This document shows, one piece after another, positions 25,257 to 31,101 of a stretch of 35,104 nt of DNA. Made by a program: the position numbers and the translations under genes. Under the pieces are notes generated by a model, which saw only the letters and a program-made list of their open reading frames with translations, did not search any database and was not told the DNA's origin. The DNA is from an uncultured Thermomicrobium sp. (GTDB taxonomy: Bacteria; Chloroflexota; Chloroflexia; Thermomicrobiales; Thermomicrobiaceae): NCBI GenBank assembly GCA_938028665.1, contig CALIMB010000004.1, forward strand, positions 1-35,104, in the 5' to 3' direction. Every line of letters begins with the position of its first letter. Position 1 is the first letter of the stretch.

Positions 25257-27974
25257 TCAGCCGACCGGCCACAGAGGAGAACGACCAAAGCCCGCGAGTG
25301 TGGCAGTTAGGAATAGGATCTCTAGAGCGAGCCCCGCGACAAGCACGAGCCAATCGACTCGGCCGAGGCGGAGCTCACCGAAACGCGGGCGGTGTCCGCG
25401 CACTCCCACACCACGGACGGTGAGAACCCAGCTCAGTTGTTGCGCCTGGCGGAATGTCGCGGCGAGGGAAGCAGAAAGTACAGGCAGCAAGGCGCGCAGA
25501 CGTGCTATTCCCCGTTCCGGAATATCCCAGCCGCGGGTCTGCACTGCTTCAGATACTGTGGAGAACGTCTGAGCGAAGACAGGGATGAAACGGAGACCAA
25601 TCGTCAGGGCGAGCCCGACGCTCGCTGGAAGTCCCAGCCGGACAAGCCCTTGCACCAGCGCTCGCTCACTTGTGGTTGCAACCCAGGACAGTGCGAGCAG
25701 CGCCAGCGCGACCAGACGGAGCGCCGTACCCAGCGCGCCGAGGATGCCAGGAAGGGTCAGCACAAGCGGTCCAGAAGAGACGAGGACCGGCTCACCAGCA
25801 CGATCGAAGAGAGGGCGGAGCACCAGGACAAGCAAGAGGAGCGGCATGAGCGCTCGCCAGACGGCCATGAGTCGCGCGCGGTCGAAACCGCCACCACGCC
25901 AAAGGAGACCGTGCAGCGCGGCGACCGTCACGGCGAGGACGAACGGACTCTGCCAGAGCAGCAGCGATGGTACGGCGACGAGGACCAGTGTGAACTTGAC
26001 ACGGGGATCGAGGCGTGCCAAGGCAGGCACTGTCCGTCGTTGCGGCGGCACGCTTGGCTCGGAGCGCCTGGGCGGTGTCGGCAAGCGAGCAGCCTGCGCC
26101 GGCTCGGGTGCGACAGCAGCAGAGGATGCGAAAAGCGCCGTGACAAGTTCCTCGGGCTCGAGCGCTGGCGGCAGCCCCAACGCCCAACTGAGCTCGGTGA
26201 CAGGAAGCGGGACCAATCCACTAGCCTCGAGTTGTGCAGCATCACCGAGAACAGCGCGTGGCGATCCCTCAGCCCACACGCTCCCCTCGGCAAGCAGCAC
26301 AACGCGGTGCGCACATCGTGCGACGAACTGGAGATCGTGACTGATGAGAAGGGTGCTCGCACCAGCGGCTGCACGCTCAGCGAGGAGCTGGAGAAGGAGC
26401 TCACGACCGGCTTGATCGAGAGCACTGGTCGGTTCGTCGAGAACAAGGAGCAACGGCTCGCGCGCGACCGCGGCAGCGAGCGCAACCAGCTGGCGCTGCC
26501 CACGACTGAGAAGCGGGAGATGTCGCTCGGCGAGCCCCAGGAGACCGAAGCGCGCCAGCGTTTTCCGGGCTCGCTGCTCACTCTCCTCAGGGGAGAGTCC
26601 AAGTTGACGCAGCCCGAAAGAGACTTCAGCCAGTGGGGTCGCATGGACAAGCTGATGATCCGGGTTTTGCGCCACATAACCAACGAACGCTGCAAGTTTG
26701 CTGATCGTCGCCGTCCGCGTGTCCTGGCCGGCGACAAGGACGCGACCAGTTGTGGGATGAAGAGCCCCAATCACCTGTCGGGCAAGCGTTGTCTTCCCGG
26801 AACCGTTCGGTCCAACAACGGCGACTACTTCGCCAGGGAAAACAGCAAGCTCTACGTCACGTAGGGCCAGCGGCCCATTCGGATAGTGGAAAGAGACGTG
26901 TTCAACGCGAAGGACTGGTTCGCCAGCGATAGCACGGGTAGCCCGTCGGCCTGGAGACTCGCGCAGGCCACCAGATGAACCGTATGCCATCTTGACAGCA
27001 CTCGGTTCACCCGGCTCGTGGCACGCAGACCCAAACGCCGTGCGCAGGTACGTTGCTGCCTCGTCCATGTGACGGAAAAGTGGCGGCACAGCCGAGAGGC
27101 CGCGCACCTGGAGGTGACGGGCCAGTGCTGCCAGCTGGGGCTCGGTGATGCCGAGTGCAGGGAGACGTTGCCAATCAGTGAAGGCATCCTCTGGCGGAGC
27201 ATCGAGGACAAGTCGACCATTGATAAGGCCGAGCAGGCGCTCGGCCAGCGGGAGCAGGAGGTCGCTATCACGCTCAGCCAGCACGATCGTCAGCGAGCGA
27301 ACCGGATCAGCCGCCAGCGCAGCCAGCGTTTGCAGCAATTCGCGTTTTCCGCGCGGGTCGAGCTGGGCAGTGGGTTGGTCAAGTACGAGCAGTTCAGGCT
27401 GGATAGCGAGCGCGACCGCAAGGGCGAGACGCTGCTTCTGCCCGCCGGAAAGGTGCCCAGACGGCCGGTCGACTTCGTGCGTCAGACCGACTGTCTCAAG
27501 TGCCCAGGCGACCCGACGTGCAACTTCCTCGGGTGAGAGCCCGCGGAGCTCCAGCGCAAAGGCAACTTCGTCCGCCACGCTGAGGCCAATGAGATTGGCC
27601 TCTGGATCCTCAAAGACGATGCCGACCGAGCGGGCCAGCAGAGCCGGTGGAACGCTAGTTATTTCCTGATCAGCAACGACAAGCCATCCGCGCACGGTGC
27701 CACCTGTCTCGTGAGGAACGAGACCGGCAAGGGCCAGGCAAAGCGTGGTCAACCCACTCCCGCTCGGACCGACCAGGCCAACAATTTGCCCCGCGGGGAT
27801 AACAAAGGTCAGGTCCTCAAGCGCCGTGTATGGGTGTTCCCTAGAGGAAAGAGCAGGATAGCGGTAAGTGAACCCCTCAGCCCGAACGACGGCACGGATC
27901 GCTGTGCTCGGCCTCGCATCTGCGGTCGACCGTACCCGCGGTCGCATCTCAGAGTCCATGAGCACGTTGTCCAC
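25257..27974 (-). CDS. Fused ECF transporter: ATPase 1 - ATPase 2 - EcfT membrane subunit
   Basis: The 905-aa product combines three proteins that are usually separate. NBD1 (about 30-265), NBD2 (about 353-590) and an EcfT/CbiQ-like membrane domain (about 650-905) with the QTRGW and TVRGV coupling segments. NBD2 has normal catalytic motifs: K394 in Walker A, Q436 in the Q-loop, E514 in Walker B and H546 in the switch. NBD1 has L75 for the Walker A Lys, E122 for the Q-loop Gln, Q200 for the Walker B Glu and R235 at the switch His, while its signature LSGGQ (175-179) is intact; the NBD2 signature is LSRGQ (489-493). The chain would energise vitamin-type uptake with the S component encoded upstream. 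The start used is GTG 27974; ATGs at 27959 and 27947 are alternatives, since no strong ribosome site decides. Confidence 0.92.
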   Translation of the reverse strand: MDNVLMDSEMRPRVRSTADARPSTAIRAVVRAEGFTYRYPALSSREHPYTALEDLTFVIPAGQIVGLVGPSGSGLTTLCLALAGLVPHETGGTVRGWLVVADQEITSVPPALLARSVGIVFEDPEANLIGLSVADEVAFALELRGLSPEEVARRVAWALETVGLTHEVDRPSGHLSGGQKQRLALAVALAIQPELLVLDQPTAQLDPRGKRELLQTLAALAADPVRSLTIVLAERDSDLLLPLAERLLGLINGRLVLDAPPEDAFTDWQRLPALGITEPQLAALARHLQVRGLSAVPPLFRHMDEAATYLRTAFGSACHEPGEPSAVKMAYGSSGGLRESPGRRATRAIAGEPVLRVEHVSFHYPNGPLALRDVELAVFPGEVVAVVGPNGSGKTTLARQVIGALHPTTGRVLVAGQDTRTATISKLAAFVGYVAQNPDHQLVHATPLAEVSFGLRQLGLSPEESEQRARKTLARFGLLGLAERHLPLLSRGQRQLVALAAAVAREPLLLVLDEPTSALDQAGRELLLQLLAERAAAGASTLLISHDLQFVARCAHRVVLLAEGSVWAEGSPRAVLGDAAQLEASGLVPLPVTELSWALGLPPALEPEELVTALFASSAAVAPEPAQAARLPTPPRRSEPSVPPQRRTVPALARLDPRVKFTLVLVAVPSLLLWQSPFVLAVTVAALHGLLWRGGGFDRARLMAVWRALMPLLLLVLVLRPLFDRAGEPVLVSSGPLVLTLPGILGALGTALRLVALALLALSWVATTSERALVQGLVRLGLPASVGLALTIGLRFIPVFAQTFSTVSEAVQTRGWDIPERGIARLRALLPVLSASLAATFRQAQQLSWVLTVRGVGVRGHRPRFGELRLGRVDWLVLVAGLALEILFLTATLAGFGRSPLWPVG

Positions 27975-28039: not shown

Positions 28040-28594
28040 TCAGGCCTCGCGGTGGAACCGTTGCGGCTGCAAACGAGCGAGGAGCGCAGCGTAACTCTCC
28101 CGGAAGAGGATAGTCAACGCGACACCGCCGACTGCACCCGAGACGACCTGCCAGATGTTGAAGGGAACATTGGCTGTCGCGGTCGCAAGGCCAATACGCA
28201 GCACAGCGACTTCGTACACAAAATACCCGACAACAAGAAGAAGACCGCCGAGGGTGACAGCGAGGATCATACGCCAAACCCCGGCACGCCAGCCGATCCA
28301 TCCAGCGAGGAAGCCCTGGAGCCCGTGGAGCACAAGTGTCGCGGGAGCGTACTGGCCATAGCCACTGGTGAGGTCGGCCAACATCGGGCCGAATGCGCCG
28401 CTGATGCCGCCGACAATGGGGCCAAAGAGGAAAGCACCGGTATAGATGGCAATATCGCCGAGGTGAATATAACCACTGGGGATCGGCACCTGGATGAAGC
28501 GAGTGGCTACGAAGACGATGGCGATCATCACGCCGCTCAGAGCAATGGTGAGCGGAGTGAACACGAGTCGCTGCGGCTGTTCGGGTCGTTCCAT
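28040..28594 (-). CDS. ECF transporter S component (substrate-binding membrane subunit)
   Basis: The 184-aa membrane protein has about six hydrophobic segments and the S-component pattern of the ECF riboflavin/HMP-type group: an N-terminal helix with FVATRFIQVPIPSGYIHLGD, then AIYTGAFLFGPIVGGISGA, and FGPMLADLTSGYGQYAP. It would bind a vitamin or precursor with high affinity; pyrimidine, riboflavin or pantothenate-like ligands are possible, but the sequence does not decide. The start is ATG 28594 with GGAGG eight bases upstream; the frame to 28660 lacks a site. It lies 65 nt before the A-A-T fusion, so both form one transporter. Overlapping hairpins precede its ribosome site. Confidence 0.85.
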   Translation of the reverse strand: MERPEQPQRLVFTPLTIALSGVMIAIVFVATRFIQVPIPSGYIHLGDIAIYTGAFLFGPIVGGISGAFGPMLADLTSGYGQYAPATLVLHGLQGFLAGWIGWRAGVWRMILAVTLGGLLLVVGYFVYEVAVLRIGLATATANVPFNIWQVVSGAVGGVALTILFRESYAALLARLQPQRFHREA

Positions 28595-28625
28595 AGCATG
28601 ATCCTCCTCTCTCCAAGTAGGCCAA

Positions 28626-28651: not shown

Positions 28652-29343
28652 AACAGCCAATTGGCACCATCCAATAGGAACAACCGCAGAAGGATCGCGT
28701 TCCTGGGGAACGATGATTCGGCAGCCCTACCATGCTCTCGGCTGCTCCAGTGTTCAGTTGCCACACATCCACTTCTGCTGTTGTCGGTCACGATGCCCGG
28801 TCACCCAGTAGGCCGCACGAGCACTAGTTCCTGCTCAACACGTCAGCCGATGGGGCACCACAGACAGGCAGCAGGGGTCAGGACTGTCTCCAGGGCATTT
28901 ATGCCGGTCAACGTCTTCACCGTTGAGCATGCCTGGGATGCCACGGCGATCATCCTAGAATCAGAGCAACTCGTTGGATGCAGGAGCAGATGATGCCCCC
29001 TCACCCCAAGTCAGTGGAGATTGCATTCCGGAGGAAGACGCAAGTCATGTGTCAGAGCTGGTCATCAACATCTCAACGAGAAACCAGCCCGCCAGTCAGC
29101 CCCAGCGTTGATATCCGTCTCGCGCTGCGACTGTCCCACACGCATGAGGAAAATCGCGGAGATGTGCCCAGTATATGCCTGCTATCATAGTCACACATGG
29201 TGCAATAGTCCTCAACCGCGGTAAAGAGATTGCCGCACTGTCGTCACCCTATTTCCCTATACGGCTTTCTCAACATGAGAGTCCCTGAGCGTATGTACGG
29301 GGAAAGGCAATATAGCTCTCTGGAGTTTGAGGGTAGTACTTGC
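28652..29343. other. 692-nt divergent region between ECF and ABC-2 genes
   Basis: No reliable gene. The 70-codon frame at 28978-29190 lacks motifs and a good ribosome site. Promoters for both flanking operons must lie here, but I could not single one out; TATCAT near 29183 is a weak -10 candidate for the plus strand. Confidence 0.4.
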
Positions 29344-30291
29344 ATGGGTATCCACGCACCTCTCATCGTTATTGACCAACTGGAGCGGCGGTTCGGCGAG
29401 ACAGTTGCACTGGCGGGGATCAGTTTTCATGTTGCTGCCGGGGAGATCGTCGGGCTCCTTGGCCATAATGGAGCAGGAAAGACAACCACCATTCGTCTCC
29501 TCCTGGGGCTGCTCACGCCCCACAACGGCACTGTGCGTGTCTTCGGGCTTGATCCTCTCGTCGATGGCGAGCGTATTCGGCAACGAACAGGCGTTGTCAG
29601 CGAATCTCCGGGACTCGACGAGCGGCTGACGGCGCGGGAGCTGCTGCACGTGTTTGCCGATCTCTACGACGTGCCGCGGGCAATCCAGCGCCAGCGCATT
29701 GCGGCACTGCTCGAGCAGTTTGGGCTCATCGAAGTGGCCGACCGTCGAGTGGCGACCTACAGTGCCGGAATGCGGCAACGCTTGGCGCTGGCCCGCTGCC
29801 TTTTGCACGATCCGGAGCTGCTCCTCTTGGACGAGCCAACCGCGGCGCTTGATCCGGTTGCGGCACACTACGCCCGGGAACTAATCGCCGAGCGGCGGCG
29901 TGAGGGACGGACGATTCTCTTGGCGACGCACAACTTGGAGGAAGCGGAACGGCTTTGTGACCGCATTGTGATTCTTGAACGTGGACGTGTGCTGGTAGAG
30001 GGGCATCCACAGGACCTTGCAGCCGCGCTCGGCGTTCCAGCACGACTCGCTATTGAAGTGGAGCCGAATTTCCTGGATATCGCGCTTGATGTCCTGGCTC
30101 GCCGCAGTTTGACAGTATGGGCGGAGCCAGAACCGGGCCGGATCATCATCGACCGCATGACGAGGAGGCAGGTTCCCGAAGTGATTGCCGCGCTTGTCGC
30201 AGCCGGTATTCCGGTGTACAGTGTGACACTCCGCACACCATCGCTGGAGGATGTCTACTTGGCATTGCACCAGCGAACGGAGCGGAGGTGA
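29344..30291 (+). CDS. ABC-2 type exporter ATPase
   Basis: The 315-aa ABC ATPase has Walker A GHNGAGKTTT, Q-loop region VVSESPGLDERLTARELL, signature YSAGMRQRLALARCLL, Walker B LLLLDEPTAALDP and switch LLATHNLEEAE, then a C-terminal regulatory extension of about 90 residues (ARLAIEVEPNFLDIALD and onward) typical of drug/Na+ or gliding-type ABC-2 exporters. The start chosen is ATG 29344, after GAGGG, because the conserved domain begins eight residues later; the frame is open to 29230. The permease gene starts three bases after its stop codon. Confidence 0.9.
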   Translation: MGIHAPLIVIDQLERRFGETVALAGISFHVAAGEIVGLLGHNGAGKTTTIRLLLGLLTPHNGTVRVFGLDPLVDGERIRQRTGVVSESPGLDERLTARELLHVFADLYDVPRAIQRQRIAALLEQFGLIEVADRRVATYSAGMRQRLALARCLLHDPELLLLDEPTAALDPVAAHYARELIAERRREGRTILLATHNLEEAERLCDRIVILERGRVLVEGHPQDLAAALGVPARLAIEVEPNFLDIALDVLARRSLTVWAEPEPGRIIIDRMTRRQVPEVIAALVAAGIPVYSVTLRTPSLEDVYLALHQRTERR

Positions 30292-30294
30292 GGC

Positions 30295-31101
30295 GTGCAC
30301 TGGCAGCGTGTCTGGGCAATCGTGCGCAAGGATCTCATTGCAGTGCGGCGGAGCCGGCCGGTGCTCGTGCCACTGGTCATCCTGCCTATGATCTTCTTCA
30401 TCGCTTTACCGGTTGCTTTTGGGATCATGGGGCGATTTCTTGTCGAGACGCGAGACACCGAGATTGAACCACTACTTCGCAGACTCCCTGCTTCTGAGCG
30501 AGCTCAGCTCGAGCGGCTCGAGCCGGGCCAGCAGCTCGCGGTCATGCTCATCAGCTATCAATTTGCACCGCTGATGCTGCTGGTCCCGCTCGCCGTCGCG
30601 ACCGCTATTGCAGCGGATAGTCTTGCAGGCGAGCGCGAGCGGCAGACGCTTGAGGCACTGCTGGTGACGCCGATCCGTGATGAGGAGTTGTTCCTCGGCA
30701 AAGTTCTGACCGCCACACTGCCAGCCGTTACGATCGGCTGGTTTGGCACGCTCATCGGCGTGTTCGTGGCCATGGCTGTCACGAGCGTGGGGCCACCGCT
30801 TCTGCCGAGCGTGCCCTGGCTTATCCTCGCACTTCTTGGGGTCCCCGGGGTGGCGTTCCTTGGGCTGGGGACCGTTGTGCTCCTCTCAGCGCGGGTGCGC
30901 GGGTTGCAAGAGGTCATGCAGTTGAGTGGGCTTCTGGCCATGCCACTCATTGGGATCCTCGTGGCCCAAGCGAGTGGACTCTTCCTCATTGACTGGCGAC
31001 TTGCACTGCTTGGCAGTGTGGTCATCTGGGTAGCGGCGTTTGGCGTTTTGCATGCTGGTCGAGGTCTCTTTCACCGGGAAAAGTTACTTCGACTCGGGTG
31101 A
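30295..31101 (+). CDS. ABC-2 type exporter permease
   Basis: The 268-aa membrane protein has an N-terminal cytoplasmic helix (WAIVRKDLIAVRRSR) and about six hydrophobic segments, with the ABC-2 family motif ERERQTLEALLVTPI near residue 112. It starts at GTG 30295 with GGAGGTGAGG immediately upstream, overlapping the ATPase gene's end region, and forms the membrane partner of that ATPase. An unknown lipid, drug or ion is exported. Its 3' end overlaps the convergent MFS gene by 18 bp. Confidence 0.88.
   Translation: MHWQRVWAIVRKDLIAVRRSRPVLVPLVILPMIFFIALPVAFGIMGRFLVETRDTEIEPLLRRLPASERAQLERLEPGQQLAVMLISYQFAPLMLLVPLAVATAIAADSLAGERERQTLEALLVTPIRDEELFLGKVLTATLPAVTIGWFGTLIGVFVAMAVTSVGPPLLPSVPWLILALLGVPGVAFLGLGTVVLLSARVRGLQEVMQLSGLLAMPLIGILVAQASGLFLIDWRLALLGSVVIWVAAFGVLHAGRGLFHREKLLRLG

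Follow-up and report, generated by a model that had tools for sequence, protein, structure and literature searches.

We report that the window, a 35,104-nucleotide stretch of DNA from an uncultured Thermomicrobium sp., encodes what is, judged from its motifs, an energy-coupling factor (ECF) module in which one ATP site is degenerate throughout; of the cases that we found, it is the most extreme. Two nucleotide-binding domains (NBD1 and NBD2) and a T component are fused into one A-A-T protein. The module is probably an asymmetric ECF motor, in which one composite site (site 2) hydrolyses ATP and the other (site 1) has decayed stepwise into a static half. One-sided ATP sites are apparently widespread among ECF ATPase pairs, and apparently unreported.

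In the Pfam search, the A-A-T protein contains two ABC_tran domains and a CbiQ domain at residues 652-855 (PF02361, 78.5 bits). Its ATPase domains match the NCBIfam energy-coupling factor ATPase families TIGR04520 (6.8e-107) and TIGR04521 (4.9e-103), both above cut-off. The features that mark ECF transporters are all found here: an EcfA/CbiO-family ABC ATPase pair (NCBIfam), an EcfT/CbiQ membrane coupler (PF02361) and an S component (PF07155), whose gene lies directly upstream on the same strand. There is no periplasmic binding protein gene within the two-gene S-AAT cluster. With all sequence-level ECF features present, the S and A-A-T genes are predicted to make up a complete S-A-A-T importer, putatively an ECF importer of the vitamin type. 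Translation of the A-A-T gene could start at GTG 27974 or ATG 27959, and the motif findings are unaffected by this choice.

Table 1. Features of the S-AAT gene pair in the window.
Feature	Positions	Strand	Remarks
A-A-T fusion NBD1-NBD2-EcfT	25257..27974	-	single open frame, 905 aa
S component, 184 aa, PF07155 ECF-ribofla_trS	28040..28594	-	Pfam 5.1e-32; first gene of the S-AAT pair
Shine-Dalgarno-like AGAGGAGG of the S gene	~28602-28610	-	
NBD1, residues ~28-330	26985..27893	-	Walker A, Q-loop, Walker B and switch degenerate; signature intact
L75 for Walker A Lys	27750..27752	-	motif position computed
E122 for Q-loop Gln	27609..27611	-	motif position computed
NBD1 signature LSGGQ, intact, part of site 2	27438..27452	-	motif position computed
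Q200 for catalytic Walker B Glu	27375..27377	-	motif position computed
R235 for switch His	27270..27272	-	motif position computed
NBD2, residues 352-610, canonical K394, Q436, E514, H546	26145..26921	-	
NBD2 signature LSRGQ, degenerate, part of site 1	26496..26510	-	motif position computed
T component CbiQ/EcfT, residues 646-905	25260..26039	-	Pfam PF02361

The NBD1 motifs read GPSGSGLTT at residue 69 (L75), FEDP (E122), LSGGQ at 175-179, LDQPT (Q200) and ERD (R235), and those of NBD2 read GPNGSGKTT (K394), AQNP (Q436), LSRGQ at 489-493, LDEPT (E514) and SHD (H546). Each of the named residues sits in its motif column in an alignment with about 170 other NBDs. The preliminary description had read Leu, Glu, Gln and Arg in place of the Lys, Gln, Glu and His of NBD1, and had called NBD2 complete except for its signature; both readings are borne out residue by residue. 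NBD1 retains the P-loop glycines, the Mg-binding Thr, the Walker B Asp, the D-loop Asp and the A-loop tyrosine region. In an ABC dimer, the Walker motifs of either domain oppose the signature of the other domain, and the five lesions therefore belong to one composite site. In site 1, composed of the NBD1 Walker motifs and the NBD2 LSRGQ, all five motifs are altered, the Walker, Q-loop and switch lesions lying in NBD1 and the signature lesion in NBD2. The opposite site, site 2, composed of the NBD2 Walker motifs and the NBD1 LSGGQ, is intact. The earlier claim that every defect lies in the same composite site and the other site is canonical agrees with these motifs, as well as with the lesion counts over 129 ECF ATPase pairs given below.

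The same A-A-T fusion with L/E/Q/R at the four NBD1 positions is present in Thermomicrobium roseum and in four other Thermomicrobium genomes (G006, G003, G001 and G005), at 61-82% identity. In G002, the gene lies in two halves at contig ends, with residues identical to those of the other Thermomicrobium. The orthologue alignment that had been proposed as a check thus gives L/E/Q/R in every Thermomicrobium relative, the finished T. roseum sequence included, and no close relative with intact NBD1 motifs or with Lys at position 75 was encountered. None of the four NBD1 residues varies among six Thermomicrobium sequences, although only 52% of the NBD1 columns overall are invariant. Likewise invariant across the six sequences are the Walker, Q-loop and switch residues of NBD2, and the NBD1 LSGGQ is invariant within the genus. 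The NBD2 signature drifts, with LSRGQ giving way to LGRGR and LSRSQ in two congeners. The invariance of the four residues against this background, together with the distribution of lesions over the 129 pairs, is not due to chance.

Orthologues at the family and order levels, several of which stand beside the same S component (45-61% identity in the S component), retain the NBD1 Lys and Gln, and also the Glu in all but one (L029, with Asp); those of the G008 and G007 types are among the ones with K/Q/E. Their NBD1 switch residue is Q, S, R, N or G, not His, and their NBD2 signature is LGRA, LGRG, LNRS, LSRS or similar. Given these intermediate states, the signature and the switch His of site 1 were lost first, being gone from these relatives too, whereas the Lys, Gln and Glu disappeared only on the branch to Thermomicrobium. 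CbiQ was absent from the long frames outside Thermomicrobium, and in our sample the A-A-T fusion is restricted to this genus, in line with its earlier characterization as unusual. In another Chloroflexota lineage, that of G435 (L099/L153), the combination V/D/E/Q faces LGRAE, an independent and parallel loss of the Walker A Lys.

To survey ECF ATPase pairs more widely, we used three samples. The first comprised 81 pairs chosen by similarity to the query, from which L080 was left out of the later counts owing to its incomplete NBD2 match. Since a similarity-based sample could favour the polarity of the query, a second sample was drawn with the curated family TIGR04520, and a third was taken from plasmids of Halobacteria, Actinomycetota and Bacillota. 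The 80 similarity-sampled pairs carry 130 lesions at site 1 and one at site 2. Among 51 divergent representatives, a K/Q/E/H lesion occurs in 21 of the NBD1s and in none of the NBD2s, all 21 lesioned NBD1s oppose a degenerate NBD2 signature, and the NBD1 lesion state changes at least eight times on the tree. Altogether, 111 of 129 pairs from Chloroflexota and other phyla are lesioned at one composite site, 17 at none and one at both, and every pair with both Walker-type and signature lesions is coherent (56/56); these counts refer to sequences, many of them related, rather than to independent events. The asymmetry had been regarded as unexpected for ECF importers. It is confirmed for the module in the window but is not confined to it: among the ECF ATPase pairs of Chloroflexota, Halobacteria and Rubrobacter, one-sided loss in milder form is frequent.

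A second, distant ECF lineage from other Chloroflexota (L192, L193, L206-L210 and L212) follows the same rule with the roles of the NBDs swapped: the signature of the first NBD is LSQGQ, LSVSL or LTYGQ, and the second NBD is without the switch His. This lineage, found in the TIGR04520 sample, which itself bore out the one-site rule, led us to reject a general rule that the lesions always lie in NBD1. The D-loop Asp of its first NBD is often missing (LDEPTTMIS/P/G). Two further pairs, on Halomarina and Haladaptatus plasmids (L106 and L107), have LQQP in the first NBD, with the Walker B Asp and Glu both replaced by Gln; they adjoin nucleoside hydrolase genes and may belong to a nucleoside or base importer. 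A fused ECF ATPase on an Enterococcus faecium plasmid (L110) has LSHGQ in its second NBD; next to it lie a gene for a SAM hydroxide adenosyltransferase and an S component that carries the annotation of an ECF-type riboflavin transporter.

Heterodimeric exporters such as TM287/288, BmrCD and TAP also combine one consensus and one degenerate site, but they are exporters and, unlike the window, keep the Walker A Lys in the well-studied cases. The closest match in the pattern of loss is with the fungal ABCG proteins Pdr5 and Cdr1, in which the Walker A, Q-loop, Walker B and switch motifs of NBD1 and the signature of NBD2 are likewise affected and site 2 is canonical. In the deviant site of Pdr5, the Lys is replaced by Cys, the Q-loop residue is Glu, the catalytic Glu is Asn, the His is Tyr and the signature is LNVEQ; this site binds ATP without hydrolysing it, with ATP present in both solved conformations, and is compatible with transport (PMC7756269, PMC8421411). 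However, these proteins are exporters with an unrelated membrane domain and with other replacements than the window (C/E/N/Y and LNVEQ), and the resemblance is convergent. The preliminary description had noted that such asymmetry is known for some ABC exporters. This is correct, but limiting it to exporters is too narrow, because degenerate sites have been described in fused-NBD importers outside the ECF family, namely RbsA and NupO, each with one degenerate site (PMC11466899). In contrast to the window, those are Type II importers with binding proteins, and it is the second Walker A that is lost, which places the defect in the opposite NBD.

Within the ECF family, the group I protein YkoD of the thiamine/HMP transporter YkoEDC has two fused ABC ATPase domains, and its partners are a single T component and a single S component dedicated to it (PMC5037267). 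The module in the window resembles it in domain architecture, having a fused ATPase pair with one T component and an adjacent S component; its T component, however, is fused as well, and one of its ATP sites is fully degenerate. The group II EcfA1-EcfA2-EcfT modules of L. delbrueckii and T. maritima likewise consist of a pseudo-symmetric EcfA dimer and EcfT, and NBD1 of the window aligns with EcfA2 (4mki) over almost its entire length. Unlike in the window, they are encoded by separate genes and both catalytic Glu residues are present, each of which is required in L. delbrueckii (PMC10368641).

In ECF modules, the dimer closes and the S component is expelled when ATP binds, and hydrolysis then resets the module (PMC10368641). 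In that study, neither single Walker B E-to-Q mutant of the L. delbrueckii transporter had ATPase activity beyond background or functioned in vivo. The viability of an ECF motor with one site can therefore not be taken for granted, and Q200, present naturally in the window, comes as a real surprise: either the other parts of the machine are now adapted to one site, or site 1 has been rewired. In the asymmetric motor that we favour, site 2 would bind and hydrolyse ATP and thereby power the cycle. Site 1, which on the loss of its Walker B Glu is predicted to be unable to hydrolyse, would be the static half, either holding unhydrolysed ATP or empty, and NBD1 would, like that of yeast Pdr5, contribute structure and coupling. 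An AlphaFold2 model of NBD1-NBD2 made without an alignment had a mean pLDDT of 41 and was not used. The dimer geometry is taken from known ABC structures. One ATP would be consumed per cycle.

A plausible though somewhat doubtful special case of the asymmetric motor is that NBD1 is a nucleotide-free scaffold, which supplies the LSGGQ and D-loop that site 2 needs and bears a T-coupling surface. The replacement of the Walker A Lys by Leu and the genus-wide invariance of LSGGQ fit this idea; however, NBD1 retains the nucleotide-site elements listed above, from the P-loop glycines and Mg-binding Thr to the Walker B and D-loop Asp residues and the A-loop tyrosine region, and Pdr5 still holds ATP with Cys in place of the Lys (PMC7756269, PMC8421411). 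It is also conceivable, but unlikely, that site 1 is rewired rather than dead, with E122 substituting for the catalytic Glu and R235 for the Walker A Lys, and that it still binds or slowly hydrolyses ATP. The substitutions of K, Q, E and H by L, E, Q and R swap charges while keeping the net charge, a rewired site is compatible with where R235 lies and how the charges are arranged, and the four residues stay invariant over sequences of 61-82% identity while the NBD2 signature drifts. Of the 17 NBDs that have lost the catalytic Glu non-conservatively, 16 have an acidic Q-loop or switch residue, compared with 4 of 42 degenerate NBDs that keep Glu or Asp, but the 17 NBDs represent about six lineages, the pattern was recognized only afterwards and the statistic ignores relatedness. 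Moreover, the signature opposing site 1 is degraded, and the Q-loop residue of Pdr5 NBD1 is also Glu (E244), yet no hydrolysis takes place there (PMC8421411). A putative gain of acid after loss of the catalytic Glu is thus a lead only, and it is improbable that an ECF site has been rewired to hold nucleotide in another way, with its charge conserved and a role of its own in resetting the transporter. The NBDs on which this lead rests include L065, L081, L085, L096, L223, L106-L108, L113, L114 and that of the window.

Selection on the gene bears on two further readings. Two close pairs that include the window are informative, and they give dN/dS values of 0.24-0.29 for NBD1, 0.13-0.14 for NBD2 and 0.15-0.17 for T; NBD1 is slightly relaxed yet clearly constrained, under purifying selection. 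These NBD1 values and the invariance throughout the genus therefore exclude sequencing error and a pseudogene. The extensive loss at one site could suggest that what is left of the module is in decay, has no function or serves only in regulation, but this is very unlikely: dN/dS is well below 1 in all three parts, site 2 is intact throughout, and no frameshifts or site-2 losses were seen in congeners. Besides, the S gene adjoins the A-A-T gene in all complete Thermomicrobium loci, and the synteny is kept in T. roseum. The source is a draft genome of 110 contigs, where a sequencing or assembly artefact might arise, but the same residues occur in five independent genomes, and because the finished T. 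roseum megaplasmid carries them too, the artefact is refuted, leaving it practically no chance.

Full-text searches of open-access literature gave no account of an ECF transporter with a degenerate site, and earlier notice in subscription papers is possible. As far as we found, the need for two hydrolytic ECF sites has been tested mainly on one symmetric protein. In a conserved protein of Thermomicrobium, evolution has fixed the very E-to-Q change that inactivates the symmetric one and has removed the Walker A Lys as well. The graded relatives offer natural constructs, with more and more lesions, in which the number of ATP sites required by an ECF motor could be tested. Our results also suggest that ECF transporters other than the lactobacillar models often have one-sided ATP sites.

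The neighbours of the S-AAT pair are a divergent ABC-2 exporter (29230-31101) and convergent SDR and glyoxalase-fold genes. The same gene order is annotated in T. roseum DSM 5159, in which the S-AAT pair is TRD_RS09680/TRD_RS09675 and the A-A-T protein is WP_012642778.1, encoded on the finished megaplasmid. Neither a riboswitch nor another Rfam RNA was found at gathering score in the window and five homologous loci, and a mir-202 match at a relaxed Rfam threshold was rejected as a chance match. A scan of genome contigs for relatives gave one weak, unrelated match. One other ECF module was found in the genome, CbiM-CbiQ-CbiO at C102, and its CbiO ATPase is fully canonical. With regard to group I versus group II organization, the S gene adjoins the A-A-T gene, and an unpaired S component is also present. 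This PF12822 S component at contig C79 (G000:C79; L149:3047-4003) has no module of its own and lies beside a periplasmic binding protein gene (PF01497). Since it is unpaired and the other module is just CbiMQO, sharing of the A-A-T motor among S components is possible, and the C79 component may use that of the window.
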